Shown here: piece by piece, positions 12,661-42,191 of the stretch
Position numbering within the stretch: the stretch's first letter is position 1
How the letters are laid out: each line of letters begins with the position of its first letter
NCBI GenBank assembly: GCA_017302655.1
Contig: JAFLDE010000010.1
Coordinates: 20,400 to 84,399, forward strand
From: Burkholderiales bacterium
GTDB lineage: Bacteria > Pseudomonadota > Gammaproteobacteria > Burkholderiales > Burkholderiaceae_C
Reading direction: 5' to 3'
DNA: 64,000 bases
The notes under the pieces: model-generated
Told to the model about the DNA's origin: nothing
The model's database searches: none
The model's input: only the letters and a program-made list of their open reading frames with translations
Made by a program: the position numbers and the translations under genes

Positions 12661-13677
12661 ATGCGCGCCATCAGAACCATCGAACGAATCAACAAGTCAG
12701 AGTTTGAGGAGAGCGTCGCTTCGGGCTACGAGCCGGTCGTGGTCCGCCAGGTGGTCAAGGAGTGGCCGTTGGTTCAGCAAGGGCTCCGCGGCCTTGAGCC
12801 CGCGCTGGAGTACCTGCAAAGGTTTGATCAAGGGCAACGCGTGGACGGAGTGCTGGCGCGCCCAGGGCCGCATCGCGCTTTCGGCTATCGGGAAGGGCTG
12901 AGCGGATTTAACTTCGTGCACGAGAAGCGCACCTTGCCAGAGCTGTTCGAGCAACTCTGGCGCTACAGCCAGTTCCCCGAACCTCCCTGCCTGGCCGTTC
13001 AAAGCGCGCTGGTCAGCCATGTGCTGAGCGGGCTGGAGCGGGAGAACCCATGCCCGCTGTTGAGCGAATCGGTGTCGCCGCGCATCTGGATTGGCAACCG
13101 GGCCTCGGTGCCTGCGCACTTCGACGACTCACACAACCTGGCTTGCGTCGCAGCCGGTCGGCGTCGCTTCACGCTACTGCCCCCTGCCTGCGCTCCACTG
13201 CTTTACTTGGGCCCGCCTGATCACGCCCCCACCGGCGCACCGGTGACGGTCATCCCCAACTTGCACGCCGCCAGCGCCGCAGATTTCCCCCTTTTGGCGC
13301 AGGCGCTGGAACAAGCGCAGGTGGCCGACCTGGAGCCTGGGGACGCGATCTACATCCCACCGCTTTGGTTTCATCAGGTCGAAGCCCTCGCGCCGCAGTT
13401 GAACATCCTGATGAACTATTGGTGGCGGCCACAGCCCGCTGCGGGCCGCTCCGACGACCTGCATCTTGCGGCCATGCGGCTGGCCATGCTGGCATTCCGT
13501 CACCTGCCCGATGGTGAACGGGAAGGCTGGCGGGCGTTACTCGATCACTATGTCTTTGGCGCCCGTGCCGATGCACTAGACCATATTCCCGAAGCTCAGC
13601 GCCACTTGTTCGGCACTATCAGCGCTGACCGAGACGCTGCCCTTCGCAAGGAACTCAGAGACCGCTTGGGCGCTTGA
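12661..13677 (+). CDS. Cupin-like (JmjC-type, Cupin_8) protein, chitin locus
   Basis: This 338-residue protein belongs to the cupin_8/JmjC-like group of Fe(II)/2-oxoglutarate oxygenase folds. The metal triad is visible as His153-x-Asp155 (PAHFDDSHNL) and His238 (PLWFHQVEAL), with a GRRRF stretch (166-170) between strands. It resembles the cupin-like protein at 39667-40674 in layout (GFNF near residue 82, LGPPD, PGDAIYIPPLWFHQVE). No signal peptide is seen. Its stop codon abuts the stop of the convergent halogenase-family gene with no spacing. Related proteins often lie beside TonB-dependent receptors and halogenase-family genes. The substrate is unknown; protein hydroxylation is a known activity of the fold but is not shown here. 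Confidence 0.85.
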   Translation: MRAIRTIERINKSEFEESVASGYEPVVVRQVVKEWPLVQQGLRGLEPALEYLQRFDQGQRVDGVLARPGPHRAFGYREGLSGFNFVHEKRTLPELFEQLWRYSQFPEPPCLAVQSALVSHVLSGLERENPCPLLSESVSPRIWIGNRASVPAHFDDSHNLACVAAGRRRFTLLPPACAPLLYLGPPDHAPTGAPVTVIPNLHAASAADFPLLAQALEQAQVADLEPGDAIYIPPLWFHQVEALAPQLNILMNYWWRPQPAAGRSDDLHLAAMRLAMLAFRHLPDGEREGWRALLDHYVFGARADALDHIPEAQRHLFGTISADRDAALRKELRDRLGA

Positions 13678-15282
13678 CTACCAGAGGTAGAGCTGAAGCG
13701 TCTTGTCTCCAAGTCTCGGCGGAATGTCCGCGAGCAGGTCGCGGTGATCGGGGAAGTTCGTCGCGCTTCGAGCCACGAAGTCGTCCACCGCATCCAGGCG
13801 ATGCCTGGCCTGGTGCGCGGAAGGTGGCTGGAGATCCTGTGCGTCCGGAAAGATGCCCATGCCCGCCAGCAGTGCATACCAGGAGACGATCGGATAGCCC
13901 TGACCATAGCGTCCGGCACGCAGGGCAGGCGCCAGCGGTTGACGAGACATCCAGGTCATCAACACGCCCTGAAGCGAGGGCGACATCGCCATGTTTTCGG
14001 CATTGGCTCGCCAGTAATCCGTATCGGTTCGGGAGTTGGTCTTGTAATGCGCAACGATGTAGTCGCGCGTGTTCTCAAAGCGGGTGCGCATTCCGTCATT
14101 GAAGCGCTGCTGAGCGGCTTCTCCGAGATCACCTAGCTCCAAGGCTTCCACCAGCATGGCCGCCGTTCGTTGCACGAACAAGAGCGCCGTGGCTTCCAAG
14201 GGTTCGATAAAGCCCTGGGAGAGCCCAATTGAAACGCAGTTGCGGTTCCAGATCTTGGCCATCCGGCCCACGCGCATTTTCAGGTGGCGGGCCGGCACAT
14301 CGGCGTCCAGCAGGGCCAAGTGTTGGCGCAATTCGGTCTCTGCTTGGTCGGCACTGCAGTGTGCGCTGCTGTACACGTAACCGTTGCCGTTGCGCTGGGT
14401 CAACGGAATCTTCCAAGCCCAGCCATGTCTCAAGGCGGTGGACACCGTTTGCGACTCGATCTGTGCATCTGGTGCTGAGGGCAAGGCAATCGCAGCATCG
14501 TTGAACAGGTTCTCGCTGTACGAGATGAACGGCGTCTTCAGCGCCTGGCCGATGAGCAAGGAGGCAAAGCCCGTGCAGTCCACAAAGAAGTCGGCATGCA
14601 AGCTCTCACCACCGTCCAATCGCAAGCTGGAAATGTCGCCGCGCTCGTCCAATTGCACGTGCTCGACATGGCGCTGCAGGTGCTGAACACCCCGTTGAAC
14701 CGCCTTGCGCCCGAGGAACTGGCCCAGCAGGGTCGCGTCGAAGTGGTAGCCGTACCAGACATCGAAGGGGAAGTTCGCCGGCGCGCGGGGCGCCCGGCCT
14801 TGCCTTGCCAAGGCAGCTGCCACGAAGAAGCGATCTGGATGGGCAGCAACGTCGGCCCCCTCCAGCCTGGCATGCACGTTGTCCACGAAGGGGTGCATGG
14901 TCAGGTTGTCGAGCATCGACACGAAGGGGTGGAAATAGCGCTCGAAGCCTGGCTTGGTCGACCAGCCCTGGAAAGTGATGCCGCTCTTGTACGTGGCGTG
15001 GCAGGCCGGCATCCATTCGGACTCCTCGATACCCAGCACATCGAAGAAGTTGCGCAGCCAAGGTGTGGAGCCCTCTCCGACGCCAATAATCCCGACCTGA
15101 GGCGACTCCAGCACCGTCACCTTCAGACGCGGGCCGAAAGAAGTGGTGGCCAGCATCAGCGCGGACATCCAGCCCGCCGTGCCGCCTCCGACCACGCATA
15201 CATGCTGGATCGGGGGCTCGCTGCCGGTCGCCAACGAACGCGTGGCGATGTACTGATCGATGACGGTAGCAGTCTCGCTCAT
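13678..15282 (-). CDS. Flavin-dependent halogenase family protein (Trp_halogenase), chitin locus
   Basis: This 534-residue protein is of the FAD-dependent tryptophan-halogenase family. The FAD motif GGGTAGW is at 32-38, a candidate catalytic lysine is Lys99 (ATYKSGITFQGW), the WxWxIP motif is WAWKIP at 288-293, and a glutamate at 363 (IEPLEAT) matches the second catalytic position. All core halogenase motifs are therefore kept, but the natural substrate is unknown and need not be tryptophan. It needs reduced FAD from a separate reductase, which is not in the window. The start MSETATVIDQ is chosen; an earlier in-frame start would lie inside the upstream terminator. It lies downstream of the TonB-dependent receptor, separated by an intrinsic terminator. 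Confidence 0.88.
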   Translation of the reverse strand: MSETATVIDQYIATRSLATGSEPPIQHVCVVGGGTAGWMSALMLATTSFGPRLKVTVLESPQVGIIGVGEGSTPWLRNFFDVLGIEESEWMPACHATYKSGITFQGWSTKPGFERYFHPFVSMLDNLTMHPFVDNVHARLEGADVAAHPDRFFVAAALARQGRAPRAPANFPFDVWYGYHFDATLLGQFLGRKAVQRGVQHLQRHVEHVQLDERGDISSLRLDGGESLHADFFVDCTGFASLLIGQALKTPFISYSENLFNDAAIALPSAPDAQIESQTVSTALRHGWAWKIPLTQRNGNGYVYSSAHCSADQAETELRQHLALLDADVPARHLKMRVGRMAKIWNRNCVSIGLSQGFIEPLEATALLFVQRTAAMLVEALELGDLGEAAQQRFNDGMRTRFENTRDYIVAHYKTNSRTDTDYWRANAENMAMSPSLQGVLMTWMSRQPLAPALRAGRYGQGYPIVSWYALLAGMGIFPDAQDLQPPSAHQARHRLDAVDDFVARSATNFPDHRDLLADIPPRLGDKTLQLYLW

Positions 15283-15301
15283 GGCGGCATCCCAAAGAAA
15301 A

Positions 15302-15328
15302 AGGGGAACGTGGTGGGCACGTTCCCCT
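15302..15328 (-). terminator. Intrinsic terminator between TonB receptor and halogenase gene
   Basis: An 11-bp perfect stem (arms AGGGGAACGTG and CACGTTCCCCT, five-base loop) is followed on the minus strand by TTTTCTTT. It starts about 29 bases after the receptor stop and ends about 20 bases before the halogenase ATG. Readthrough would give much less halogenase than receptor. Confidence 0.8.
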
Positions 15329-15356
15329 GGGTGCAATGCGCTGTGCGCTTAGGGTG

Positions 15357-18155
15357 TCAGTACTTGACGCGTGCAGTCAGGTAGAACTGGCGTCCATTTT
15401 GGTAGATGGCGCGCGGCTGAACCTCCGAAGCGTAGTACTTCAGCTTGGGGTTGTTCAGGTTCTGTGCGTCCAGGCTGATCGCAAAGTGCTGGCTGAACTT
15501 GTAGCCCAGCGAAGCCGACAACACTCCATTGGCCTTCTGGTAGTAGTCCGTGGCGCGATCAGAGCCGATGAAGATGTCATCGGTCAGGCTGTAGTTGACG
15601 CGCAGCGACAGCGAGTCGTTTTCGAAGTAGCCGCCCAGATTGAGCGTGTTCTTCACATTGCCACGCAGCACTTTGCCATCCTCGTCGTGCCCGTTGGACA
15701 ACGTGTAGTTCGCGTTGACACCGAAGTTGGCCGCCACCGGCATCTCAAAGGCAAACTCCAGACCGGTGACTGAGGCCTTCTTGTTGGCCAAGCCGGTGAT
15801 CACGAACTGGCGGTTCACCAACTGCTGAACGGGGCCAGGAACGGTATTGCCGAGCAACACCGGATAGGTGCCGGTGAAGGTGCCATTGGTGATGTAGCTG
15901 CTCATCTCCATGTGGAAGGTACCGACCGACACAAACGATCGAGGCGCGAAGTACCACTCCAGATTGGCGTCGAAGTTGGTCGAACGGATCGGCTTCAGGT
16001 CGGCATTGCCGGCCGTGCCTCCCCCCACCGTGGTGTTGTCCAGGAACATACCCGTGGTGTTCAGCGACGTGAACGCAGACAGGGCCGTGTAGTCGGCGCG
16101 GGTGATGGTGCGACTCAGTGCCAGGCGACCCACCACGTCCTTGCTCACATCCACTCGCAGGCTGGCGCTGGGGAGGAAGTCGGTGTAGGTTCGGTTGCTG
16201 CTGGTGGCGTTGAAGTTGCCGAACAGCGAACTGACATCTGGGGTCTCGTTAGGGAAGCTGGCTCGGAACGAGCCCGAGGTCTGCTCGGTTCGCACCACGC
16301 GCAAGCCGACGTTGCCGCTCCAGCCTTCACCCTCCAGATTGCCCTGAATGTAGGCAGCGGTGGACGTCTCCTTGACGTTGTACTCGCCGCCATCGCCGGG
16401 AGAGCGCCGCGCCACCGGGTCGCGGTTGGTGAACTTGGCGTTGTAGGCGGCCAGCACGTCTGCGGGGATGTACCCGATGTTGGTTGGGAAACCCGTACCT
16501 AGTCCACTGCCAAAGTTGCCGGGGTAGTTGTTCGTCAGCGCGGGCAGGCTGGAGAAGGGCGACAGTGCGGGAGCGTCGTTGCCATTGGCGTCCGCACAGG
16601 CGCTCGGCTTGCTCCAGTCCCAGGGGCCGACGCGGTAGGGCGCGCCACTTGCGCAGCCCGGGCCTTGGTTGACCGTCGCGTCCGTGTAGCGCTTGTGCTC
16701 GGCCTGGCGCGCGCCGAACTTCAGGCTGCGCAATACGCCAGAGTCCAACGTGTACTCCGCATCCAATTGAGCCCAGCTCTCCTGGTCGTGGACCTGCACG
16801 TTCTGGGTACCAAAGATCCAGTCGAGGCCCATCGAGGGGTTAGTGAACCCGAAGGACGGCGCCGCATCGTTCCCGTTCAGAGCGAAGTTCGCCTTGGTGG
16901 TGCGGATGGCCAGTTCGACCACGTCTTGGCTGACCGTCTTGCCCTTGCCCTTGGAGTTGCCCACGCTGGCGTTCAGCACCAGGGCATCACTGACCTTGAG
17001 CGTCCCGTCCAGGCTCACGAAGCCGCTTTCGGCTGAGGCCTTGCGAGAAATCATGTCGTAGTAGCCTGCGGTGGACGCACTGGCCCAGTCGAAGGTCGCT
17101 TTGGCCAGGGTCTTGACCCCGTTCTTGTCGGTGGCCACCTGATAGTTCGAAATCGTGGCCCCATTGACCAGACCCGGACGCGGGGCAATCAGATAGTTGC
17201 GGTTGTAGTTGTCGGCATCCATCTTGGATGAGAAGCCGGTCAAGAGCAGATCCAGGTCCTTGGTGGGACGGAACTGCGCGCGCACCAAGCCACCCTTGCG
17301 CTCACGCTCCTGTGTGAAGTAGGCGCTACCAATCAGGTCGGGGACGTACACGCCTTCCAAGTCGGGACGTGCAGCAATCAGCTGAGGCGCATTGTCCTTG
17401 GTCAGCTGATTGATGAAGCCCAGGGTCTCGACCCCGTCGCGGCGCAAGCTGCGCTTCTCGGAGAACGCTTGCACCAGCAGGCCGAATGTCTTGTCTTCGC
17501 TGCGATAGTTCAGCAAAGCGCTGATTTGCGGGTCAGTCTTCTTGGGCAGGTCGGCGTACACCGCTCCAATGCCCGCCTCGAAGGTCAGAGGCTTGGAGAA
17601 ATCCAGTGGGCGGCGGGTAATGATGTTCACCGATCCAGCTGTGCCACCCTCTACCAGCGAAGCTTCGGAGCTCTTGCGCACCTCTACCCGCGCGACCAGT
17701 TCAGAAGGCAAGAGCGCATAGCTGACGCTGCGCCCCACGCCGGCGCCGGTCTGGTCCAGCACGAACCAGTCCCCATTGGCGATGCCGTGGCCGTCCAACA
17801 GGGTTTGCGTCAAGCTAGGGTTGGTGCCACGCAGGCCCACGCGGTCGCGCTCATCAAAGCCACCCGAGCCACCGGCCGGGCTGTTGAGCACAGAAACGCC
17901 GGGTACCCGCGCCAGCGAATCGGCGACGTTTTTGTCCGGCATCTTGCCGATGTCTTCGGCCGTGATGACGTCCACATGCGCCTCTGCCTTGCGCTTGACG
18001 TTGATGGCTTGCTGCAACGACGCACGAATGCCCGTCACCACCACCGTCTCCAGTTGCTGGGGGTTGGTGGCTTGGGGCGAGGTCTGGGCCAGCACGGCGG
18101 CCGGCAGGGTCAGCAGCACCGCAGCGGCGTGAATCGGCGTAGGGCGGAACTTCAT
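15357..18155 (-). CDS. TonB-dependent receptor, chitin-locus (TonB-Xanth-Caul type)
   Basis: This 932-residue outer-membrane receptor uses TonB and proton-motive force to import ligands too large for porins, here probably chito-oligosaccharides. Residues 1-23 form a signal peptide (AVLLTLPAAVLAQ), ETVVVTG at 36-42 is the TonB-box region, and a plug domain follows (DVITAEDIGKMPDKNVADSL). A 22-strand barrel ends with an aromatic residue (LTARVKY), as outer-membrane insertion requires. The ATG at 18155 has GGAGAG eight bases upstream. It is downstream of the nag operon but has its own upstream region with a candidate promoter and a repeat resembling one at the nag promoter. Chitin as ligand is inferred from its neighbours. 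Confidence 0.9.
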   Translation of the reverse strand: MKFRPTPIHAAAVLLTLPAAVLAQTSPQATNPQQLETVVVTGIRASLQQAINVKRKAEAHVDVITAEDIGKMPDKNVADSLARVPGVSVLNSPAGGSGGFDERDRVGLRGTNPSLTQTLLDGHGIANGDWFVLDQTGAGVGRSVSYALLPSELVARVEVRKSSEASLVEGGTAGSVNIITRRPLDFSKPLTFEAGIGAVYADLPKKTDPQISALLNYRSEDKTFGLLVQAFSEKRSLRRDGVETLGFINQLTKDNAPQLIAARPDLEGVYVPDLIGSAYFTQERERKGGLVRAQFRPTKDLDLLLTGFSSKMDADNYNRNYLIAPRPGLVNGATISNYQVATDKNGVKTLAKATFDWASASTAGYYDMISRKASAESGFVSLDGTLKVSDALVLNASVGNSKGKGKTVSQDVVELAIRTTKANFALNGNDAAPSFGFTNPSMGLDWIFGTQNVQVHDQESWAQLDAEYTLDSGVLRSLKFGARQAEHKRYTDATVNQGPGCASGAPYRVGPWDWSKPSACADANGNDAPALSPFSSLPALTNNYPGNFGSGLGTGFPTNIGYIPADVLAAYNAKFTNRDPVARRSPGDGGEYNVKETSTAAYIQGNLEGEGWSGNVGLRVVRTEQTSGSFRASFPNETPDVSSLFGNFNATSSNRTYTDFLPSASLRVDVSKDVVGRLALSRTITRADYTALSAFTSLNTTGMFLDNTTVGGGTAGNADLKPIRSTNFDANLEWYFAPRSFVSVGTFHMEMSSYITNGTFTGTYPVLLGNTVPGPVQQLVNRQFVITGLANKKASVTGLEFAFEMPVAANFGVNANYTLSNGHDEDGKVLRGNVKNTLNLGGYFENDSLSLRVNYSLTDDIFIGSDRATDYYQKANGVLSASLGYKFSQHFAISLDAQNLNNPKLKYYASEVQPRAIYQNGRQFYLTARVKY

Positions 18156-18498: not shown

Positions 18499-19761
18499 TC
18501 AGCGCCGCACGCTCGACTTCAGCAAGCGGTGACCGCTGCCCCTGTTCATGGCGTTGAGGAGATCGCCGTTGTCCTGGCTCAGTTCCCAGGCAAACACGCC
18601 GGCCAAGCCCAGTTCGCGGGCAAAGCGCGCCTTGGCTGCCACCGCGCGCGGATCGTCGTAGCCGATCCAGCGTTGGCCGGCCGCGTCAAACAGGCTCCAG
18701 GCTTGCTGAGCTTCGCTGAAGCGGGCCTCGAAACCGCCCCGGCCTCGCCCCTGGGCATCAAGGTATTGACGGGCGATGTCCTTGTAGAAGATCGAACCGT
18801 CCTCGTTGGCTGGGAACAGTCCCTGGCGCGCCACCCCGGGTCGGGGCTCAGCCACACCGGCGAAACCGCGACCGTAAAAGGCCACACCAGCCACCAGTTT
18901 GCTCAGGGGCACACGGTGCCGGTGCATGTGCGCCACCGACTGGGCAAGGCTGTCGTCGGCTCCCGACCAACTGCTGAACAGCGGCGAATGATGGCCCGCG
19001 CGCTCGGTCCAAGGCCCATGAAAGTCGTAGGTCATCAGGAACACCAGATCCAGGGGCGGTGCGGCCTGGCTCCAATCGATGCGGTCCAACACTTCCGCCG
19101 TGGCGTTCACGGCCACGGTGAGTGCGTAACGCCTGGCCCGCTCCTTGCCCAGCACGTCGAGTCCGGCGCGCAGGTCCTTCATGAGCAAGGCGAAGTTCGG
19201 TCCATCCTCGGCGCTTCCCAACTTCACACCATTGGCGGCGCCATTGCTGCCCGGATGCTCCCAGTCGATGTCGATGCCATCGAATCCTTCGTGCGCTCGA
19301 AGGAACCGCTGCATGGATGCCACCAGGGCTGCCCGGCCCTCGGCGCTGGCTGCCAGGTGAAAAATCGGGTCCGACCCACCCCAGCCACCCACCGAGGCCA
19401 GCACCTGCACTGCTGGGTCGCGCTGCTTGAGTCGCACGAAGGCCGCATCGAACATCCGGTGTTGCGGGTGCGGCACCACGTCGTAGTCGGGCCGCCCCTT
19501 GCACGCTTGGGCATCGCGAGCGACTTGCCCCGGCCCGCACAGGTGCAAGAAGGCGTAGAGCACATGGCTCACACTGCCTCGTGGCAGCGCATCGACGCTG
19601 GCGACGGGCCGCTCGTTGATGACGTACACCCCCACCACCCGCTCGGAACCCTTCTTCACTTCGCGGGCGCCGCCGCCGAACCAAGGCGGCTCCGCCTGCG
19701 CAGTAACCTGCAAGGGCCATGCAGAAAGGAGGCTCAATACGAGAAGCAGGACTCGAAGCAT
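18499..19761 (-). CDS. GH18 chitinase (exported)
   Basis: This 420-residue glycoside hydrolase of family 18 cleaves beta-1,4 bonds of chitin by substrate-assisted catalysis. The signature DGIDIDWE is at 161-168 with the catalytic Glu168; the SVGGW motif (123-127) and MTYDFHGPW are also present. Residues 1-21 look like a signal peptide (LLLVLSLLSAWPLQVTAQA), so it acts outside the cytoplasm. No separate chitin-binding module is seen. The start at MLRVLLLVLS is chosen over 24 extra codons upstream because it begins the signal peptide. It lies 13 bases after the GH16 gene and is the last gene of the nag operon. Confidence 0.93.
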   Translation of the reverse strand: MLRVLLLVLSLLSAWPLQVTAQAEPPWFGGGAREVKKGSERVVGVYVINERPVASVDALPRGSVSHVLYAFLHLCGPGQVARDAQACKGRPDYDVVPHPQHRMFDAAFVRLKQRDPAVQVLASVGGWGGSDPIFHLAASAEGRAALVASMQRFLRAHEGFDGIDIDWEHPGSNGAANGVKLGSAEDGPNFALLMKDLRAGLDVLGKERARRYALTVAVNATAEVLDRIDWSQAAPPLDLVFLMTYDFHGPWTERAGHHSPLFSSWSGADDSLAQSVAHMHRHRVPLSKLVAGVAFYGRGFAGVAEPRPGVARQGLFPANEDGSIFYKDIARQYLDAQGRGRGGFEARFSEAQQAWSLFDAAGQRWIGYDDPRAVAAKARFARELGLAGVFAWELSQDNGDLLNAMNRGSGHRLLKSSVRR

Positions 19762-19774
19762 GGCAGGCGTTCCG

Positions 19775-20614
19775 TCAGAAGTCGCAAGTGGGTGGTTGGG
19801 GGGCTGGAGGCAAGCTGTCATGCGCAGCAACACCCTGCGCTCGCAGGCCTAGTACGCGTTCGCGCAGTTGCTGCGGGCTCAAGGGTTCGCCCGCCACATG
19901 CACCACCCAGTCCACGTCGAAGGCGTATTGCCGGGTCGGGCCGGCTGGCAGCAGGTTGCCAGGGCTGAACCAGTGGCTGAAGGCCAGGCCCATGGCTTGG
20001 CGCGGCACGGTGCGACCGGCATGGAAGGCAATCTCTCGCTCATCCACGAACCAGCGGCTGCCCTGCGGCGTGGCCTGAACCGTTAGCTGCACCCAGCGCC
20101 CGCCGAAGGACTGCTTGTCCTCCACGCTCAGGTTGTGACTCTCCCAGGGTTCCAGGCGAACGGTCTGCCAAGCCACCCCGTAGAGCCGCGTGTCCGGCGC
20201 CCCCCAGCCGCCATTGGGCAGGTATTCCCAGTCCAGTTCGCTGAAGAGCGGGTCGTAGTCGAAGCGCAGGGGGCTGACCTGAAAGAAGGCCTGCACGGCG
20301 GCATCGCCATCAGGGCCGGACAGCGGCGTGTCGCTGAAGCGCACCCGGGCGCTGGTGCTGCCCCACAAGAACTGCTGCGGGCGGCAAATCTGGGTTTGGA
20401 AGCTGCCCGCCGGCGTGCCGTCGGTGGCCGCGTGCAGCCGCAGCACACCTTGTCCAGGCAGTTCGATGCGCGCCGGATCCCAGCGAGCACCTGGAATGCC
20501 GGGGTGCCCGGCGCTGCTGCGCAGCGTCCAGCCACCCGTACGCAGCGCAGCCAAATCCGCCTGGTTGAAGTCGTCGAAAAAAAGCGCCGCCGCCAGGGCG
20601 AGCGTCGCGCTCAT
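19775..20614 (-). CDS. GH16-family glycoside hydrolase in the chitin operon
   Basis: This 279-residue protein has the GH16 jelly-roll pattern with the catalytic motif ELDWE at 126-130, of the five-residue ExDxE type. GH16 enzymes act mostly on beta-1,3/1,4-glucans, agars or carrageenans; a few eukaryotic members are chitin transglycosylases. Its true substrate in a GlcNAc operon is unclear. The start ATG overlaps the MFS stop by four bases (ATGA). The N-terminus (MSATLALAAALFFDDF) has little positive charge and is only a weak signal-peptide candidate, so location is uncertain. Confidence 0.8.
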   Translation of the reverse strand: MSATLALAAALFFDDFNQADLAALRTGGWTLRSSAGHPGIPGARWDPARIELPGQGVLRLHAATDGTPAGSFQTQICRPQQFLWGSTSARVRFSDTPLSGPDGDAAVQAFFQVSPLRFDYDPLFSELDWEYLPNGGWGAPDTRLYGVAWQTVRLEPWESHNLSVEDKQSFGGRWVQLTVQATPQGSRWFVDEREIAFHAGRTVPRQAMGLAFSHWFSPGNLLPAGPTRQYAFDVDWVVHVAGEPLSPQQLRERVLGLRAQGVAAHDSLPPAPQPPTCDF

Positions 20615-24364: not shown

Positions 24365-24380
24365 GCGGCTCGCAGCCGCT

Positions 24381-31219: not shown

Positions 31220-31221
31220 GC

Positions 31222-33219: not shown

Positions 33220-34107
33220 ATGAAGCATCCCATCCCTCTTTGGGTACTTTGCCTGCTCGCCGCCTGCGGCGGAGGTGGCGCCGCCACGCCAGATGCCGCG
33301 CCCAGTCCGGCACCGGCTCCGAGCCCTTCACCCACTCCCCCACCTGCGCCTGCGCCGAGCAACCGCTGGACGCTCGTCTGGTCCGATGAATTCGATGGCC
33401 CGGCCGGCGCTGCACCCAACCCATCGCACTGGAGCTATGACCTCGGCAACCGCGAAAGCGGTGGCTGGGGAAACAACGAGTTGCAGTACTACACCGACTC
33501 ACGCCGCAACTCGCAGCTAGACGGCAATGGGGTGCTGCTCATTCGCGCCGAGAGGCAGGCGCAGGCCGGTCCATGCTGGAACGGGACGATGTGCGAGTTC
33601 ACGTCGGCGCGGCTGTTGAGCCGTGGCAAGGTCGCGGTGCGCTATGGAAAGGTGGAGGCCCGGATCCAGGTACCAGGTGGCAAAGGCATCTGGCCAGCCT
33701 TTTGGTCGCTCGGTGACGGCCGTTGGCCCGATGTCGGGGAGATCGACATCATGGAATTCGTCGGGAAGGAGCCCAACGCGGTGTACGGCACTGTGCATGG
33801 ACCGGGCTACTCTGGCGCCAACGGCCTGGGCAAGGAGAGGCGAATGGGACAACCGGTACCTGACGCCTTTCATGTTTTCGCGATTGTCAAGCGCCCCAAC
33901 GAGATTGAGTGGTTCCTGGACGGCGAGTCTTTCTTCAAGATCACCCCGGCCAGCCTTCCGGCCGGCGCGGCCTGGGTGTTCGAACGCGACTACTTCCTCA
34001 TCATGAACCTCGCCGTGGGCGGGCACTGGCCGGGCTCACCGGACGCGAGCACACCCTTTCCCGCCACCATGAAGGTCGACTACGTCCGCATCTACAAAGA
34101 GGACTGA
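33220..34107 (+). CDS. GH16 endo-beta-1,3-glucanase (laminarinase), lipoprotein
   Basis: This 295-residue secreted enzyme hydrolyses internal beta-1,3-glucan bonds. The laminarinase catalytic motif EIDIMEF is at 174-180 (Glu174 nucleophile, Glu179 acid/base), with WPAFWSLG just before it. Residues 1-15 end in a lipobox (LLAAC), so Cys16 is probably lipidated and the enzyme anchored to the outer membrane. A Pro/Ala-rich linker of about 25 residues joins anchor and catalytic domain. It precedes the TonB receptor and probably supplies it with oligosaccharides. Confidence 0.94.
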   Translation: MKHPIPLWVLCLLAACGGGGAATPDAAPSPAPAPSPSPTPPPAPAPSNRWTLVWSDEFDGPAGAAPNPSHWSYDLGNRESGGWGNNELQYYTDSRRNSQLDGNGVLLIRAERQAQAGPCWNGTMCEFTSARLLSRGKVAVRYGKVEARIQVPGGKGIWPAFWSLGDGRWPDVGEIDIMEFVGKEPNAVYGTVHGPGYSGANGLGKERRMGQPVPDAFHVFAIVKRPNEIEWFLDGESFFKITPASLPAGAAWVFERDYFLIMNLAVGGHWPGSPDASTPFPATMKVDYVRIYKED

Positions 34108-34200: not shown

Positions 34201-34216
34201 CTGAAAGCGCTTTCAG
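34201..34216 (+). promoter_or_regulatory. LacI-type operator 1 upstream of the glucan TonB receptor
   Basis: CTGAAAGCGCTTTCAG is a perfect 16-base palindrome about 95 bases before the receptor ATG. It shares the 14-base core with the site at 29901. A weak -10-like TATCCT (34192-34197) lies just upstream, which would put the operator over the start of transcription. Confidence 0.75.
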
Positions 34217-34281: not shown

Positions 34282-34297
34282 CTGAAATCGCTTTCAG
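34282..34297 (+). promoter_or_regulatory. LacI-type operator 2 upstream of the glucan TonB receptor
   Basis: CTGAAATCGCTTTCAG is a 16-base palindrome with a single mismatched pair. It ends 14 bases before the receptor ATG and abuts its AGGAGA ribosome-binding site. Its centre is 81 bases from operator 1, compatible with looping or a roadblock. Confidence 0.65.
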
Positions 34298-34311
34298 CCC
34301 AGGAGACTCGA

Positions 34312-37281
34312 ATGAAGAGGACCTCGATCCACACCGCCAGCCGCCCACGGGCCGCTTTCGCGCACCACGCACTGGCTGGCGCATGCGCCCTGCTGTTTGC
34401 GGGCACCGCATCAGCCCAAGCCGCGCCGCAGCAACTCGACACCGTGATCGTCACCGGCATTCGCAAGAGCCTGGAGACCTCCGTCAACCTGAAGCGCAAG
34501 GGTCAGGGTTTGGTGGACGGCATCGTGGCCGAGGACATTGGCAAGTTTCCGGACACCAATCTGGCCGAGTCACTCAGCCGCATCAGCGGTGTGTCCATCG
34601 AACGCAACAACGGTGAAGGCACGCGCATCACCGTGCGTGGCATGGGCCCGGACCAGAACTTGGTGCTGCTCAACGGTCGTCAAATGCCAGGTTCCAGCTT
34701 CGACGGCGGCGCGCCGGCGTCGCGCTCCTTCGACTTCTCCAATCTAGCGTCGGACGGCATCGCCGCCCTCGAGGTTTACAAGACGAGCCGCGCAAGCAGC
34801 CCGACTGGTGGCATGGGCGCCACCGTCAACGTGCGCACCCAGCGTCCCTTCGACATCAAGGAGACCATCGCGCAAGTCGGCCTGAAGCTGGTGAGCGATG
34901 AGACAGCTCGCAACGTGCCCTCGGAGCAGCAAGGCAAACGCGCCACGCCCGAACTCAGCGCGATCTACAGCACGCAATCTGCCGACGGCACCTTCGGCAT
35001 CGCGCTGATGGGCACGTACCAGGAGCGAGATTCGGGCTATTCGCAGGCTTCTGTCACGAGCGGCTGGAAGACCTTTGACGGCAAGGTGGACAACGACTGG
35101 GGTGGCACCAACGCCCAGTGGGGCGGCTTGCCCCCTGCAGCCTGGGGCGCCATCAAGAACCGTCCGAGCGCCGATTCGATCTACAGCGTGCCGCAGAATT
35201 TGAACTACGCGTTCACCGGCGTGCACCGCGAGCGCCTGAACGGGCAGATGGTCGTTCAGGTCAAGCCCGCCAAGGACGTGGTCGCCACCCTGGATTTCGT
35301 GCTGTCGGAGCAGAAGTTTCGCCAGCGCCGCAACGACATTTCGGCCTGGTTCAACTATGGCGGCCAGTTTGGCGAGTACCAGACCGGATCGCCGTCCTCG
35401 CCCATCATCTATGGCGAGACCATGACGAACTCCGACATCGCCATGGGGGGCTCGCGCATCCAGACCAAAATCAAGAATCAGCAGGTCGGCCTGAACCTGA
35501 AATGGAAGGCCAGCAACGCGCTGAACTTTGATTTCGACATTCACAAGTCATCGGCCACCTCAGGTGCCGACGACCCGCTGGGCACCAGCGTCGTGTTGGG
35601 TACCGCCGCCCTCAACCGCGGCGACACCTACGTGGACTTCAGCAACAAGTTCCCTGTGCTGAACATCGTCGGCGGTGCACTCGACGCTTCGCTGATGCAG
35701 TTGCAGGGTTCGGTGTTCAGCAACAGCTACCAGAAGAACGAAGTCCAGCAGTTGCAGACCAGCGGCAGTTGGAAGATCGACGGCGACAGCAGCCTGGACT
35801 TCGGCGTGTCGCTGACCGAGGTGAAGAACCGCTCGGCTTTCGCCAACGTGCAGCGCGACAGCTGGGGGGCCAATGCCGCTGGCGGTCCAGCTGCCTTGCC
35901 GGACAACATTTGGAAGGCTGAATCGGTCAGCAAGTACTTCGCAGGCATCCCTGGCTCTGGCGACCCGCGCCTCTACAACCAGTTCTTCACCTTCAACTTC
36001 GATGCACTGCGGGCCGCTGCCATCCAGCACCTGGGCTCGGACACCTTGCTGAAGGCCTCGTTCAATTTCACCGACGACCTGCGCACCACCGAGAAATCGG
36101 ACGCCATCTTCGGCCAGTACAACCTGGCTTGGGACTGGGGTGTGCCCATGGACCTATCGGCCGGATTGCGCTATGAGCGCACCCGCGTGGAGTCCCCTGG
36201 CGTCGAGTCGGTCCCCATGGCCGTCCGCTGGGCGGGCGACAACGAGCTGCCGGTGATCTTCAACGGCACCACCAACTCGCTGCGCACCGGCAAGTACAGC
36301 TACGCCCTGCCATCCATCGACTGGAGCGCCGAGCTGTCCCATGACACCAAGATTCGCCTCAGCTACGGCAAGACCATCGGCCGGCCGGGTTGGAACGCCA
36401 TCCAAGGTGGCCGCACCTTGAACGGCCTGGCGCGAATCGATGGGGGCACCGGCTCGGTCGGCAACCCCAATTTGAAGCCCCTGCAGTCGAACAACTTCGA
36501 CTTCTCGGCGGAGCACTATTACGCCAAGAGCAGCTACGTGGCGCTGAGCTATTTCCTGAAGAAGGTGAAGGACTACAACGCGGCGATCATCACCGACCAA
36601 ACCGTACCCGGCCTCACCACCCCGGTCGGCGGCGCCTACTACCGGCAGGCTGTGCAGTCGGGCGGCTGTGCGCCCAACGACTCCGGTTGCATCCGCCAGT
36701 ACATCTTCACCAATCTGGCCAATGCACCGGGCGTCGATGTGGTCAATCGCACCATCACTGGTCAGCCAAGTGACCCGCTGCTGGTGTTCAAGCTGGGCAG
36801 CTTCGAGAACAACGAGCGCAAGAGTCGCATCAATGGCATCGAGGTGAACGCCCAGCACATCTTCAGCAACACCGGCTTTGGCGTGTCAGCCAACTTCACC
36901 AAGGTCAAGTCCGACCGCGACTACGACAACAACAAGGTTGGCGCGCAAACCGATGTGCTGGTCGGCATGGGTGACTCGGGCAACCTGGTCGGTTTCTACG
37001 AGAACGAGACCTACAGCGCACGCCTGGCCTATAACTGGCGCGGCAAGTTCCTGGTGGCCAACTACGGTGGGGCTGAGGGTGCGCAGCCGCTCTACGTGGA
37101 ACCCTATGGCCAGTTCGACCTGAGCGTCGGCTACAACGTGGACAAGCACCTGCGCATCCAGTTCGAAGCCATCAACCTGACCGACGAGTACACCCGCACC
37201 CACATGCGCAACGAGAATCAGATTGGCGGCGTGACCAAGCTGGGGCGCCGCTTCATGCTCGGCGCGCGCTACAAGTTCTGA
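34312..37281 (+). CDS. TonB-dependent receptor, glucan locus
   Basis: This 989-residue outer-membrane receptor starts at MKRTSIHTAS behind an AGGAGA box; earlier in-frame codons are rejected because they cross both operators. Residues 1 to about 36 form a signal peptide ending TASAQA, DTVIVTG at 43-49 is the TonB-box region, and the plug follows (GIVAEDIGKFPDTNLAESLS). The barrel ends with phenylalanine (LGARYKF). Ligands are probably beta-1,3-gluco-oligosaccharides, from the adjacent laminarinase. An intrinsic terminator follows 38 bases later and then the halogenase-family gene. Confidence 0.9.
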   Translation: MKRTSIHTASRPRAAFAHHALAGACALLFAGTASAQAAPQQLDTVIVTGIRKSLETSVNLKRKGQGLVDGIVAEDIGKFPDTNLAESLSRISGVSIERNNGEGTRITVRGMGPDQNLVLLNGRQMPGSSFDGGAPASRSFDFSNLASDGIAALEVYKTSRASSPTGGMGATVNVRTQRPFDIKETIAQVGLKLVSDETARNVPSEQQGKRATPELSAIYSTQSADGTFGIALMGTYQERDSGYSQASVTSGWKTFDGKVDNDWGGTNAQWGGLPPAAWGAIKNRPSADSIYSVPQNLNYAFTGVHRERLNGQMVVQVKPAKDVVATLDFVLSEQKFRQRRNDISAWFNYGGQFGEYQTGSPSSPIIYGETMTNSDIAMGGSRIQTKIKNQQVGLNLKWKASNALNFDFDIHKSSATSGADDPLGTSVVLGTAALNRGDTYVDFSNKFPVLNIVGGALDASLMQLQGSVFSNSYQKNEVQQLQTSGSWKIDGDSSLDFGVSLTEVKNRSAFANVQRDSWGANAAGGPAALPDNIWKAESVSKYFAGIPGSGDPRLYNQFFTFNFDALRAAAIQHLGSDTLLKASFNFTDDLRTTEKSDAIFGQYNLAWDWGVPMDLSAGLRYERTRVESPGVESVPMAVRWAGDNELPVIFNGTTNSLRTGKYSYALPSIDWSAELSHDTKIRLSYGKTIGRPGWNAIQGGRTLNGLARIDGGTGSVGNPNLKPLQSNNFDFSAEHYYAKSSYVALSYFLKKVKDYNAAIITDQTVPGLTTPVGGAYYRQAVQSGGCAPNDSGCIRQYIFTNLANAPGVDVVNRTITGQPSDPLLVFKLGSFENNERKSRINGIEVNAQHIFSNTGFGVSANFTKVKSDRDYDNNKVGAQTDVLVGMGDSGNLVGFYENETYSARLAYNWRGKFLVANYGGAEGAQPLYVEPYGQFDLSVGYNVDKHLRIQFEAINLTDEYTRTHMRNENQIGGVTKLGRRFMLGARYKF

Positions 37282-37318
37282 GCCCCATCGCGCGCAAACG
37301 CTCTTGCTGAGCGTCCGA

Positions 37319-37345
37319 AGGGCCGGCAACGACCGGCCCTTTTTC
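37319..37345 (+). terminator. Intrinsic terminator after the glucan TonB receptor
   Basis: An 8-bp perfect GC-rich stem (AGGGCCGG/CCGGCCCT, six-base loop) is followed by TTTTC. It lies between the receptor gene and the halogenase-family gene, matching the arrangement in the chitin locus. Confidence 0.85.
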
Positions 37346-37392
37346 ATCGAGGCTCGTGAAAGGCACTTGGCGGTGGGATTGAGGACTTCATC

Positions 37393-38925
37393 TTGAACGA
37401 ATCTCTGCAACGGGTGGTGGTGCTGGGCGGAGGGTCCGCAGGCTGGCTGGTGGCTGGACTGCTTGCCGCCGAGCACCCAGCGCTTCACATCACCCTGATT
37501 GAATCTGACGAGGTGCCGGTGATCGGCGTCGGTGAGGGCACTTGGCCATCAATGCGCGACACCTTGCGGCGCATCGGGGTCTCGGAGACGGAGTTCATCC
37601 GTCGCTGCCACGTTTCCTTCAAGCAGGGATCGCGCTTCGACGGCTGGCAGCGGGGAGCGTCTGGCGCCTCGGGCGACCGCTACTACCACCCCTTCATGCT
37701 CCCCGTAGGTTACGGCGACGCCCAACTCGTGGCCGCCTGGTGCGGCACGCCAGGTGAACGGGCCTTCGCCGATCTGGTGAGCCCCTCGGTGCAGGTGTGC
37801 GAGGCCGGACTGGCGCCCAAGCAGGTGCAGACGCCCGAGTTCGGCGCCGTAGCCAACTACGCCTACCACTTCGACGCTGGCCTCTTCGGCCAGTTGCTGC
37901 GCGAGCATGCCACCAGCCGTCTGGGTGTGCAGCACGTGGTCGACCATGTCGAAGCGGTCATGCCCCAGGAGAACGGCGACATCGCCGCGCTGCGTACGCG
38001 CAACCGGGGTGAAATGGCAGCCGATCTGTTCATCGACTGCTCAGGCCTATCGGCTCGTCTCATCCACGGGCATTACGGCGTGCCGCTGCGCAGCGAGCGC
38101 GAAGTCCTGTTCAACGACGCCGCCATGCCCGTGCAGGTGCCCTACGACCGTGTCGATGCCCCGGTGGCCTCTTGCACCGTGGCCACCGCTTGGGCAAAGG
38201 GTTGGATATGGGATATCGGACTGCCCACGCGCCGCGGCGTGGGTTGCGTGTTCTCACGCGCCCATGCCAGCGAAGACGAGGCAAGAGCTGCGCTGCAGGC
38301 CTATCTGCAGGCCACTGGCGCGCCGCCGGACACGCCGACGCCGAGGGTCATCCGCTACGACCCAGGCTACCGCAAGCAGTTCTGGGTGCGCAACTGCGTC
38401 GCCATCGGCCTCTCATCCGGCTTCATCGAGCCTCTTGAGGCTTCGGCACTTGCGCTGGTCGAGCTGTCTGCCCAGCGCCTTTGCATGGATCTGCCCATGG
38501 CCCGAGCCAGCATGGACGCCGTGGCGCGCCGTTTCAATGAAGACTTCAGCTATCGCTGGGCGCGCGTCATCGACTTCCTGAAACTGCACTACCTGCTCTC
38601 TGCGCGCGATGACAGTGAATACTGGCGCGCCCACCGCGACCCTTTCAGCTGGCCCGAGCGGCTGCGCGAGCTGATACCCATCTGGCGCCTGCGTCCGCCT
38701 GCACGCCACGATTTCGGCCGCATCGACGAAGTCTTTCCCGACGCCAGTTACCAGTATGTTTTGTACGGGATGGGTTTCCGCCCGGAGCTCTCGCCACTCA
38801 GCGAGGTCCAATGGAGAACAGCCCAAGCCTGCTTCGACGAGGCGGCACGCCAGGCCCGCCGGTTACTCGCCGGTTTGCCCGGTCACCGCAGTCTGCTCGT
38901 TCACCTTCAACACGCCGCCGCATGA
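37393..38925 (+). CDS. Flavin-dependent halogenase family protein, glucan locus copy A
   Basis: This 510-residue protein of the tryptophan-halogenase family begins with TTG behind a GAGG box. It has GGGSAGW (12-18), Lys77 in VSFKQGSRFDGW and Glu349 in IEPLEAS. The WxWxIP motif, however, reads WIWDIG at 271-276, with glycine for proline. It might be a catalytically altered member or have changed substrate handling. It is followed by a SapC-family gene with a four-base overlap, so this gene, SapC, the cupin-like gene and a second halogenase form one operon. Confidence 0.87.
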   Translation: MNESLQRVVVLGGGSAGWLVAGLLAAEHPALHITLIESDEVPVIGVGEGTWPSMRDTLRRIGVSETEFIRRCHVSFKQGSRFDGWQRGASGASGDRYYHPFMLPVGYGDAQLVAAWCGTPGERAFADLVSPSVQVCEAGLAPKQVQTPEFGAVANYAYHFDAGLFGQLLREHATSRLGVQHVVDHVEAVMPQENGDIAALRTRNRGEMAADLFIDCSGLSARLIHGHYGVPLRSEREVLFNDAAMPVQVPYDRVDAPVASCTVATAWAKGWIWDIGLPTRRGVGCVFSRAHASEDEARAALQAYLQATGAPPDTPTPRVIRYDPGYRKQFWVRNCVAIGLSSGFIEPLEASALALVELSAQRLCMDLPMARASMDAVARRFNEDFSYRWARVIDFLKLHYLLSARDDSEYWRAHRDPFSWPERLRELIPIWRLRPPARHDFGRIDEVFPDASYQYVLYGMGFRPELSPLSEVQWRTAQACFDEAARQARRLLAGLPGHRSLLVHLQHAAA

Positions 38926-39653
38926 CCCGCCCCGCCCTGCTCGATAACGTGACTCACCGGCACCTGCGAGTGCGCACCGAGCGTTCCGCCGCGCTGGGCG
39001 ATGGCCGCCAGTCGGCCTTGGCCCTGCCCGCCGAGTTCCGCCAGTTGCAGGCGCATTTCCCGATCGTCTTCCAGTTGGTGGAGGGCGGGGGAGGTTTCCA
39101 ACCCATCGCTCTCTTCGGCCTGGAAGAAGGGCAGAACTTGTTCCTGACGGACGCCGGTTGGGAGGCGTCAGCCCTGCCAATGGCGCTGCAGCGCGAGCCC
39201 TTTTTGATCGGCCGCGCCAGCGACGACAGTCTGCAGTTGCACATTGACCTCGACAGCCCGCGCATCGTTCGCCCCGAAGAGGGGGAGCTCGGCACCGCCT
39301 TATTTCTGCCGCACGGCGGATTCAGCGACTACCTGGACCAGGTGGTGTCGCTCATGGAGGACCTCCACGCGCAGGCCCAGCAGCTGCCGGCTTTCATCGG
39401 CGCACTGACACATCACCAGCTGCTCGAGCCCTTCGTGCTGGACCTCGAACTCCCAGGGAGCGAAGCCCTGCGCCTCACCGGACTCTTCACCATCAATGAG
39501 GAGCGCCTCTTCTCGCTGCCCGGTGCAGCACTCGAAGAGCTGGCGCGCAGCGGGCACTTGCTGCCGATGACGCTGCAGATCGCATCACTGGCCCAGCTGC
39601 CGGTGCTGGCTCAGCGCGCCACTCAAGCCAGCCGATTCGCCAGCAGGCGCTGA
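38922..39653 (+). CDS. SapC-family protein
   Basis: This 243-residue protein resembles the SapC family, named from Campylobacter S-layer export but of unknown biochemical role. The start MTRPALLDNV overlaps the halogenase stop (ATGA). Typical features are NVTHRHLRV near the start, a central FPIVFQLV strand and LTGLFTINEERLFSLP near the end. No signal peptide is seen. SapC-type genes are often found next to TonB receptors and halogenase-family genes, but no activity is known. Confidence 0.82.
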   Translation: MTRPALLDNVTHRHLRVRTERSAALGDGRQSALALPAEFRQLQAHFPIVFQLVEGGGGFQPIALFGLEEGQNLFLTDAGWEASALPMALQREPFLIGRASDDSLQLHIDLDSPRIVRPEEGELGTALFLPHGGFSDYLDQVVSLMEDLHAQAQQLPAFIGALTHHQLLEPFVLDLELPGSEALRLTGLFTINEERLFSLPGAALEELARSGHLLPMTLQIASLAQLPVLAQRATQASRFASRR

Positions 39654-39666
39654 GCTCGCTGCAACC

Positions 39667-40674
39667 ATGCGCGACATCCCCGACTGGACCGGCCCCTTCA
39701 ACCCGGCCGGCTTGCCGGCGGAGCTGCTTCAGGCCGAACGGCCCTTTGTGGTGCGAGGCGGCTTCGCGCACTGGCCGGTGGTGCAAGCGGCGCGGCGCTC
39801 CGACGAAGCGCTGGCCCGCTACCTGATGAGCCATTACAACGGCGTGCACATCGGCCTGTTCCAGCTGCCGCCCGAAGCGCGTGGCCGGGTCTTCTATGCG
39901 GACGACTCCTTGCGTGGCTTCAACTTCAGCCGCCATGCCGCCACGCTGGACCAGGTGTTGACCGGTTTGCTCGGGCTGGCAGGTGCAGACAAGGCGCCCG
40001 GGCTGTATGTGGGCTCAACCACGGTCGAAGCCGTGCTTCCGGGCTTCCTGGACGCCAACGCCTTGGGCTTGGGCACACGCGACGCCCTCGTCAGCCTGTG
40101 GCTGGGCAACCAGACGCGCATCGCCGCGCACTACGACCTGCCCGACAACCTCGCCGTGGTCGCTGCTGGTCGCCGCCGTTTCACCGTCTTTCCTCCGGAG
40201 CAGCTGCACAACCTGTACCTGGGACCGCTCGACCCCACCCCGGCCGGGCAACCGATCAGCTTGGTCGACTTCGCCGCCCCCGACCTGCAGCGCTTCCCGC
40301 GCTTCAGCCAAGCCTGGGAGGCGGGAGAGCAGGTGGAGATGGCGCCAGGCGACGCGCTCTTCATCCCAAGCATGTGGTTCCACCACGTCGAGAGCCTGGC
40401 ACCGGTGAACCTGTTGATCAACGCCTGGTGGCGGCAGACACCCGAGTACGTGGACTCGCCGCTGAGCACCCTGCGCCTGGCGCTGATGACCCTGCGCGAC
40501 CTGCCCGAGAAGGAGCGGCAGGTCTGGCAGCACCACTTCCAGCATTTCATCTGGGACGCCAGGCCCGAACACTGGGCCCACATCCCGGAGCCAGCCCGCG
40601 GTCTGCTGGGCCCGATCGACGAAACCCTCTCGCGCCAGGCGCGCGCGCAACTCCTGTCCCAATTGAAGCGATGA
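39667..40674 (+). CDS. Cupin-like (JmjC-type, Cupin_8) protein, glucan locus
   Basis: This 335-residue protein is parallel to the one at 12661-13677. Fe(II) ligands are His155-x-Asp157 (AHYDLPDNLA) and His239 (MWFHHVESLA); GRRRF is at 168-172. The sequence GDALFIPSMWFHHVE is typical of 2-oxoglutarate-dependent JmjC-like hydroxylases. It follows SapC by 13 bases and overlaps the next halogenase gene by four bases. The substrate is unknown; it is probably not exported. Confidence 0.85.
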   Translation: MRDIPDWTGPFNPAGLPAELLQAERPFVVRGGFAHWPVVQAARRSDEALARYLMSHYNGVHIGLFQLPPEARGRVFYADDSLRGFNFSRHAATLDQVLTGLLGLAGADKAPGLYVGSTTVEAVLPGFLDANALGLGTRDALVSLWLGNQTRIAAHYDLPDNLAVVAAGRRRFTVFPPEQLHNLYLGPLDPTPAGQPISLVDFAAPDLQRFPRFSQAWEAGEQVEMAPGDALFIPSMWFHHVESLAPVNLLINAWWRQTPEYVDSPLSTLRLALMTLRDLPEKERQVWQHHFQHFIWDARPEHWAHIPEPARGLLGPIDETLSRQARAQLLSQLKR

Positions 40675-42191
40675 ACTCTCAATCTCAATCCTTCCACCGC
40701 GTCGTCATCGCCGGCGGCGGCACGGCCGGATGGATGACGGCCGCGCTGATGAGCAAGCTGCTGGGCAAACAGTTGGACATCAAGCTGGTGGAGTCCGAGG
40801 AGATCGGCACCGTTGGTGTTGGCGAGGCCACCATCCCTGCCCTGCTCAGCTATCACAACCTGCTCGGCATCAACGAAGCCGAGTTCATGGCCGCCACCAA
40901 CGCGACCTTCAAGCTCGGCATCCACTTCGAAGGCTGGAAGGACGTCGGCCAAAACTACTTCCACTCTTTCGGCAACACCGGCAACGACCATTGGAGCGCT
41001 GGCTTCCAGCACTTCTGGCTGAAGGGCCGCGCGTCGGGACTGGCACGCACCTACACCGACTACAACCCCGAGACGGTGGCTGCGTTCGCTAATCGCTTCG
41101 CGCACGTGCCCAACCATGCGCTGAATCATGCGTACCACCTGGACGCCGGACGCTATGCGCGCTTCCTGCGCGCCATGAGCGAGAAGCATGGGGTGCAGCG
41201 CATCGAGGGCAAGATTGCCCGCGTGCTGACGCACGAGCAGGATGCAGGGGCGGCCCGCATCGGCGACATCGCCGCGCTGCAGATGGAAGGCGGCCAGCGC
41301 ATCGAGGGCGACCTCTTCATCGACTGCACGGGCTTTCGCTCGCTGCTGCTGGGCGAAACCCTGGGCGTGGGCTACGAGGATTGGTCGTACTGGCTGCCGT
41401 GCGACCGCGCGGTAGCGGTGCAGACCGCCTCGGTGCGCGAGGCCTGGCCCTACACGCGTTCCATCGCGCACCCCTTTGGTTGGCAGTGGCGCATTCCGCT
41501 GCAGAACCGCGTAGGCAACGGTCTGGTCTACAGCAGCAAGGAGCTCAGCGACGCCGACGCCCCCGACATGCTGCGCCGGAACGTGGAGGGTGAGTTGCTG
41601 ACACAACCCCGCGTGCTGAAGTTCCTGCCGGGCCAGCGGCACCGGGTGTGGGAGCGCAACTGCGTGGCCGTCGGGCTGGCCGGAGGCTTCATTGAGCCGC
41701 TGGAATCCACCAGCATCCACCTCATCCAGCGCCATGCCATCCGGCTGATGCAACTCTTTCCGGCCGGCGGTATCCGCCAGCCCGATGTGGATGAGTTCAA
41801 CCTGCAGTCCAAGCGCGACCTGGAACACATCCGCGACTTCATCGTGCTGCATTACCACGTCAATGCGCGCACCGATTCGGCGCTGTGGAAGCATGTGCGC
41901 GAGATGGACGTGCCCGCCTCGCTGCGCCATCGCATCGCGCTCTTCCGCGAGACCGCCCGCGTGTTCCGGCCCAGCGATGAGCTGTTCGCCGAGAACTCCT
42001 GGATCCAGGTCATGCTGGGGCAAGGCATCACGCCCGAGCGACATCACCCGGTGGCCGATCTGATGGGACCTGAGGAATTGCAGCGCTTCCTGGAGGACAT
42101 CCGCGTGCGTGCGCAGCGCATCGCGGCGAGCTTGCCCCCGCACATCGACTACGTGCAACAGCTCTGCGCGCCCTTCCGCGCCGCAGCCTGA
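40671..42191 (+). CDS. Flavin-dependent halogenase family protein, glucan locus copy B
   Basis: This 506-residue protein is the most canonical of the three halogenase-family proteins in the window. It has GGGTAGW (15-21), Lys81 in ATFKLGIHFEGW, WQWRIP (271-276) and Glu345 in IEPLEST. The lysine and glutamate spacing is close to PrnA Lys79 and Glu346. The start ATG overlaps the cupin stop. It should be an active flavin-dependent halogenase if given FADH2; relatives from similar neighbourhoods act on indole in vitro, but a natural substrate is not known. It is the last gene before the rpoC terminator. Confidence 0.9.
   Translation: MNSQSQSFHRVVIAGGGTAGWMTAALMSKLLGKQLDIKLVESEEIGTVGVGEATIPALLSYHNLLGINEAEFMAATNATFKLGIHFEGWKDVGQNYFHSFGNTGNDHWSAGFQHFWLKGRASGLARTYTDYNPETVAAFANRFAHVPNHALNHAYHLDAGRYARFLRAMSEKHGVQRIEGKIARVLTHEQDAGAARIGDIAALQMEGGQRIEGDLFIDCTGFRSLLLGETLGVGYEDWSYWLPCDRAVAVQTASVREAWPYTRSIAHPFGWQWRIPLQNRVGNGLVYSSKELSDADAPDMLRRNVEGELLTQPRVLKFLPGQRHRVWERNCVAVGLAGGFIEPLESTSIHLIQRHAIRLMQLFPAGGIRQPDVDEFNLQSKRDLEHIRDFIVLHYHVNARTDSALWKHVREMDVPASLRHRIALFRETARVFRPSDELFAENSWIQVMLGQGITPERHHPVADLMGPEELQRFLEDIRVRAQRIAASLPPHIDYVQQLCAPFRAAA

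Follow-up and report, generated by a model that had tools for sequence, protein, structure and literature searches.

Why do genes for flavin-dependent halogenases, cupin-like oxygenases and a SapC-family protein stand beside the TonB-dependent receptors of glycan loci? The question is raised by a 64,000-nucleotide stretch of DNA, hereafter the window (forward strand, positions 20,400 to 84,399 of contig JAFLDE010000010.1, GenBank assembly GCA_017302655.1, Burkholderiales bacterium), which carries a chitin locus and a β-glucan locus, each with such genes. A reading of this DNA from sequence alone had named eight genes, the two receptors included, and proposed that one unusual gene set, repeated at both loci, serves receptor-mediated uptake itself; the positions and the families it gave were both verified by open reading frames and profile searches. 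Coupling of the enzyme set to the receptors is well supported by the survey described here. What the enzymes do is less certain, and the best single reading, which we hold tentatively, is a receptor-coupled, cytosolic oxidative tailoring set whose most likely target is the partner TonB receptor.

Coupling of the enzyme set to TonB-dependent receptors

The glucan locus is a single tight gene row on the forward strand: the receptor TBDR2 (34312..37281; TIGR01782, 584.8 bits against a cut-off of 310), halogenase A or FDHA (37393..38925, with a TTG start; PF04820, group II), the SapC-family protein (38922..39653; PF07277), which overlaps FDHA at an ATGA, the cupin-like, FIH-JMJD5-like Fe(II)/2-oxoglutarate oxygenase Cup2 (39667..40674; PF13621) and halogenase B or FDHB (40671..42191; PF04820, group I, a relative of Xcc4156 and BrvH), which overlaps Cup2 at another ATGA. 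The predicted model of TBDR2 (predicted local distance difference test, pLDDT, 88.6) matches solved TonB receptors. The chitin locus is a partial copy of this theme. On the reverse strand it holds TBDR1 (15357..18155; TIGR01782, 559.7 bits against the same cut-off), the receptor of this chitin/N-acetylglucosamine (GlcNAc) locus, and FDH1 (13678..15282; PF04820 or Trp_halogenase, group II, catalytic Lys and Glu kept). The cupin-like, JmjC-type Fe(II)/2-oxoglutarate oxygenase gene Cup1 (12661..13677, forward strand; PF13621 with E 3.9e-53, JmjC_2 with E 2.4e-6) is convergent with FDH1 and starts 9 bases past a PIN-domain gene (PF13470, 12184..12651), so that its co-expression with TBDR1 is doubtful. 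The claim of one set at both loci thus holds for receptor, halogenase and cupin, but the chitin locus lacks SapC, has a single halogenase and carries its cupin on the opposite strand. In the receptor tree, the three nearest relatives of TBDR1 are without a halogenase within 9 kb, and its group of 16 (support 1.0) includes four receptors, TBDR1 and three others, with a halogenase at 4 kb or less, all of group II.

Co-occurrence across genomes, which the sequence-only reading had named as a check, was surveyed in 199 Pseudomonadota genomes, 23 of which hold at least 84 halogenase genes at E 1e-60. Receptors were taken from a list of 150 matches to TIGR01782, and the linkage counts refer to the matches listed. 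For 73 of the 84 listed halogenases, a listed receptor is encoded no more than 10 kb away, against about 4.6 expected, with binomial and Fisher values that ignore relatedness. The other 11 comprise one pair split over two contigs, one halogenase with an unlisted receptor 133 bp away and nine halogenases whose fetched stretch holds no receptor. At the level of whole genomes, TIGR01782 receptors (E 1e-100) occur in 21 of the 23 genomes with a halogenase and in 10 of the 176 without. The window's own genome encodes five full-length PF04820 proteins, every one beside a TIGR01782 receptor (a sixth, partial match of 22.5 bits was left out of the count); one of these pairs is split between contigs C30 and C66, with the last part of the receptor on C66 ahead of the halogenase.

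Gene content was compared in named loci, an uneven sample formed by the best 80 of 589 and chosen by similarity to group I. The fetched stretch includes a receptor in 66 of these (by a profile built here), a cupin in 58, SapC in 55 and all four families in 51, and 11 of the 14 loci without a receptor are fetched stretches shorter than 15 kb. Named species of Alpha-, Beta- and Gammaproteobacteria repeat the order receptor-[halogenase II]-SapC-cupin-halogenase I, and a plasmid of Sphingobium sp. RAC03, as annotated, carries the glucan version, with receptor, SapC, cupin, halogenase, glycoside hydrolase family 16 (GH16), LacI, major facilitator superfamily and GH3 genes.

Each main clade of the receptor tree shows its own gene layout. 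Neighbour families, scanned at ten loci per clade, place clade A, with a receptor followed by a halogenase, in α-glucan loci (α-amylase in 10 of 70 neighbours), and clade C, with the receptor-[group II]-SapC-cupin-group I layout, in β-glucan loci (GH3 in 6, GH1 in 3 and GH5 in 3 of 69), while the loci of clade B are mixed (GH3 in 4 of 68). Pairwise distances among halogenases track those among their receptors, both for group I (r 0.61, n=52, a value reached by none of 2000 within-genome permutations) and for group II (r 0.63, n=18, reached by 4 of 2000). The proposal of a role in receptor-mediated uptake is upheld to this extent: the set accompanies receptor loci for α-glucan, β-glucan and mixed glycans, and its layout tracks the receptor type.

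The gap between the receptor and the first accessory gene holds a terminator-like hairpin with a T run at both window loci (15294..15328 on the reverse strand between TBDR1 and FDH1; 37318..37349 on the forward strand between TBDR2 and FDHA). Such a hairpin is found at 65 of 115 receptor/first accessory gene junctions, where 20 shuffles gave a mean of 3.1 and a largest value of 5, and in just 1 of 97 accessory gaps of at least 60 bp. A separate terminator scan did not list the hairpin behind TBDR2, probably because A-T pairs were counted into the stem. On a plain reading of its position after the receptor, the receptor would be made in excess and the enzymes in small amounts, as for catalysts.

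The enzymes and their candidate substrates

A comparison of 100 halogenases from 130 sources recovered the GxGxxG flavin motif, the catalytic Lys and Glu and the WxW motif, the Lys and Glu being kept in 92, including all three window copies; FDHA reads WIWDIG instead of WxWxIP. Group I includes FDHB, nearest to Xcc4156, 9luq and BrvH, and group II includes FDH1 and FDHA, the latter nearest to 2pyx, with 9ltb and 9lu2 also among its closest solved structures. The remaining eight of the 100 are divergent halogenase-like copies that have lost both Lys and Glu; seven (L084, L090, L103, L107, L117, L129 and L138) share their receptor loci with active copies, and L112 has no receptor.

The Trp-binding motif of PrnA/RebH-type enzymes, which act on free Trp (YHGLPPYS-like, taken from PMC8269204), was found by a strict pattern in none of the 100 halogenases and by a loose one in two. 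There is weak profile similarity to the Trp-modifying flavoproteins QhpG and LodB and to GoxB, all below the curated cut-offs. These three proteins act on protein-bound Trp, and their weak matches would fit a polypeptide rather than free Trp as candidate substrate. The alignment of FDHB to Xcc4156 (6y1w, E 2.6e-204) covers nearly the full length, and FDHB shares the catalytic residues of Xcc4156 and likewise lacks the free-Trp motif; BrvH (6frl) is a related indole-type flavin-dependent halogenase. Xcc4156 and BrvH have been described as isolated enzymes, whereas FDHB stands in a receptor module, and a four-gene module of Xanthomonas arboricola contains a close relative of Xcc4156. MibH (5uao), which belongs to the same family and acts on peptide Trp, ranks near the bottom of the solved structures matched by FDHB. 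According to PMC7336383, Xcc4156 and BrvH do not halogenate free Trp and their native substrates are unknown; Xcc4156 brominates model substrates and has an open active site into which, its authors say, peptides might fit.

The same two enzymes act in vitro on free indole and indole derivatives (PMC7336383), which favours an alternative that we consider unlikely, namely that the set makes or destroys a small aromatic molecule which enters together with the glycan or signals for it. This molecule would be an indole derivative or else an aromatic portion of glycans from plants or algae. Several halogenase paralogues per genome (six genomes have at least seven), each tracking its own receptor type, are hard to square with one shared metabolite. 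Nor were natural-product assembly genes met, in keeping with the sequence-only reading: the genes scanned from 12.1 to 42.2 kb, a part of the open frames there, include no peptide or polyketide synthase family and serve to break down, transport and regulate the use of glycans. The absence of aromatic groups from laminarin and chitin also counts against this alternative.

The second enzyme class is made up of oxygenases. HxD...N is present in 87 of 87 cupins (78 by a longer pattern, the other nine separately), and the distal His that completes the HxD...H iron ligands of JmjC/cupin_8 oxygenases was read directly in Cup1 and Cup2, the set-wide pattern (2 of 87) being too narrow. The nearest solved relatives are FIH, C2orf60, JMJD5 and JMJD7. 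The cupins share HxD...H with the FIH/JMJD5 JmjC hydroxylases, and the match to FIH covers the catalytic part, but they are bacterial and the similarity is distant.

Clustering of neighbouring genes was led by LacI regulators, GH3 proteins and α-amylases, followed by DUF6445 (PF20043). The latter occurs at 16 loci with a halogenase and at 0 of 62 without, the linked stretches being longer (about 20 against 13 kb), and is the cluster most often found within 400 bp of a halogenase (13 cases), not every other cluster having been named. In the 23 halogenase genomes, 12 of 18 DUF6445 matches have a halogenase no more than 3 kb away or a receptor no more than 5 kb away, and twice DUF6445 is fused to a halogenase in a single open frame (L044:10836-13199 and L212:8986-11217), once on contig C57 of the window's own genome and once in a Comamonadaceae genome. 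No copy is present at either window locus. DUF6445 found no match among solved structures by sequence; it shows the HxD...H...R pattern of Fe(II)/2-oxoglutarate oxygenases, and from these motifs it is probably such an enzyme. DUF6445 is put forward here as a further partner of the receptor/halogenase loci.

SapC gave a confident predicted model (pLDDT 95.8, predicted template modelling score 0.89) with no Foldseek match at E 0.001 among the PDB or viral models, and its family shows invariant or near-invariant N, P, F, S, H, W and Y residues. These properties, the overlap of its gene with halogenase A and its place amid the halogenase and cupin genes in the recurring order would suit a scheme in which another protein of the locus is the target, for example SapC itself as a modified carrier, the GH16 protein or the TonB side. 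We regard this as quite unlikely. In clade A of the first receptor tree, SapC is missing from the stretch around receptor and halogenase, so that it could be the general substrate only if a copy encoded far away works in trans.

A phage-borne source of FDHB was considered and rejected: 66 of 50,697 phage records match, mostly cyanophages, and those listed are near 30% identical. Two unannotated faecal records named 'Bacteriophage sp.', MT835646.1 and MT837902.1, match FDHB better (52% and 45%), and the first also carries SapC alongside its halogenase; both are possibly bacterial contigs.

The receptor as candidate target

We return to the reading in which the enzymes tailor their partner receptor. 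On this reading the glucan-locus set would be under glycan control. A LacI-family regulator is encoded at 28474..29538 (forward strand), and the window contains three LacI-type operator sites, against 0.02 expected, all on the forward strand: the perfect palindrome TGAAAGCGCTTTCA at 29901..29914, ahead of ATP-binding cassette transporter genes, and two ahead of TBDR2, one a perfect palindrome (34202..34215) and one with a single mismatch (34283..34296). A GH16 β-glucanase-like gene (PF00722) lies at 33220..34107 on the forward strand. For comparisons beyond the window, receptor clusters were fetched for 60 of the 81 without a listed halogenase and for 59 of 59 with one; four of the former (L181, L185, L194 and L198) turned out to carry a halogenase no more than 2.4 kb away and were scored as linked. 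Counts of linked and unlinked receptors omit identical sequences, weak or incomplete receptor hits and any receptor whose distance to a halogenase is 4-9 kb. A similar operator pattern was found in the 520 bp ahead of 27 of 132 receptors from loci with a halogenase and of 4 of 66 receptors from loci without one, with a background of 0.017 per stretch. Upstream of TBDR1 lies the tandem repeat GTGGTATTTAAGTGGCATT (18408-18426), a possible regulator site of a kind that 13 of 100 shuffles also give, followed by a GH18 chitinase-like gene (18499..19833, reverse strand; PF00704).

Once made, the halogenases would brominate, chlorinate or hydroxylate the indole or phenol ring of a polypeptide, the Fe(II)/2-oxoglutarate oxygenases (the cupin-like proteins and, at other loci, DUF6445) would oxidise polypeptide side chains, and SapC would serve as a carrier or docking protein. 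In the window, the first 40 residues of the accessory proteins are less hydrophobic than those of the receptors and the GH16 protein, and the cofactors of such enzymes are cytosolic; modification of the receptor would hence have to precede export. The partner receptor would be modified at this stage, perhaps at a Trp of its ligand face, and the modified form might bind or release glycan better.

Candidate residues were sought by column scans of 61 linked against 65 unlinked receptors, then of 132 against 65, which yielded clade-specific residues only. A clade-specific Trp marks each of the three receptor clades that go with group I halogenases (28 of 28, 14 of 14 and about 71 of 74 linked members), and each such Trp is found in 2-3 of the 65 unlinked receptors. 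On the TBDR2 model these Trp positions map near 465, near 514 and to W640, at strand ends that are probably extracellular, judged from loop lengths.

A number of observations weigh against a modified receptor. Neither scan found a single shared target residue, and Trp is not enriched in linked receptors (1.3% in both sets). The three unlinked receptors of clade B and the two of clade C keep the Trp, the single one of clade A not being among those that have it, and at least 16 linked receptors lack all three Trp. Specific residues other than Trp occur in the clades equally often, and sugar stacking could also account for a conserved Trp, so these positions are only a lead. Co-divergence fits one partner enzyme per receptor, and joint inheritance as a unit, with no contact at all, would yield the same pattern. 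C2orf60 (TYW5), one of the nearest solved relatives of the cupins, acts on tRNA rather than protein. Two genomes, G171 and G193, hold a halogenase and no TIGR01782 receptor at E 1e-80. SapC is present in 67 of the 199 genomes, 45 of them without a halogenase, and 20 of 43 SapC genes in the 23 halogenase genomes lie away from any halogenase and any listed receptor (e.g. L051 and L288-L306), so SapC has an additional role; these solitary copies have no neighbour common to more than 6 of their 20 stretches. The LacI-type operator, finally, is not general: a search of the chitin locus found no LacI-type palindrome pair, the glucan-locus site is not present at the C57 module of the same genome, and most receptors, with or without a halogenase locus, have no LacI-type operator pattern upstream. 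A fuller version of the proposal, in which a glycan-induced set halogenates and hydroxylates Trp-bearing outer loops of the receptor before export, SapC is a docking protein of new fold and each receptor class has its own halogenase, is doubtful.

If the receptor is modified, the benefit might also lie elsewhere. TonB receptors are known docking sites for phages and bacteriocins, and the candidate residues appear, on the model, to face outwards, so that modification might shield the receptor from such agents rather than aid uptake. This we think very unlikely; nutrition is the better fit to the operator sites for a glycan-type regulator in the glucan operon and to the glycan genes that accompany the sets elsewhere too.

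The 30-kb block that holds both glycan loci is flanked by rpsL-rpsG-fusA (8925-12041) and rpoC-rpoB (42294-50656), which are usual neighbours of one another, and resembles an island between housekeeping genes. Glycan loci travel as blocks, and both window loci sit between rpsL and rpoC, but neutral hitch-hiking of genes with no role in uptake is highly improbable given catalytic residues kept in 92 of 100 halogenases, a gene order that recurs in three proteobacterial classes and a recurring hairpin.

Relation to known systems and significance

The loci share their receptor, glycoside hydrolases, transporter and regulator with known carbohydrate TonB receptor (CUT) loci, for which no function is known to have been assigned to the extra enzymes. 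The gene families are known, and their association with receptors may already be in print: a J Bacteriol paper of 2010 on how Xanthomonas uses GlcNAc is reported to name halogenase, SapC and cupin genes by the GlcNAc receptors. Our search of titles and abstracts met no paper that connects glycan TonB receptors with SapC and halogenases of this kind, although subscription papers may hold such a link; in their accessible parts, PMC8269204 does not contain the words TonB, receptor or SapC, and PMC7336383 does not contain receptor or gene cluster. The fusion, the link to DUF6445 and the hairpin were not met in the literature searched.

Taken at its own strength, the analysis suggests that chemical modification, possibly of the receptor itself, is a part of sugar uptake in these bacteria. 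Tying the BrvH/Xcc4156-type halogenases, SapC and DUF6445 to one receptor class leaves a short list of candidate substrates for them. If the receptors are indeed halogenated, nutrient uptake would involve a protein modification of a new kind, and the loci would be a source of peptide-halogenating enzymes.

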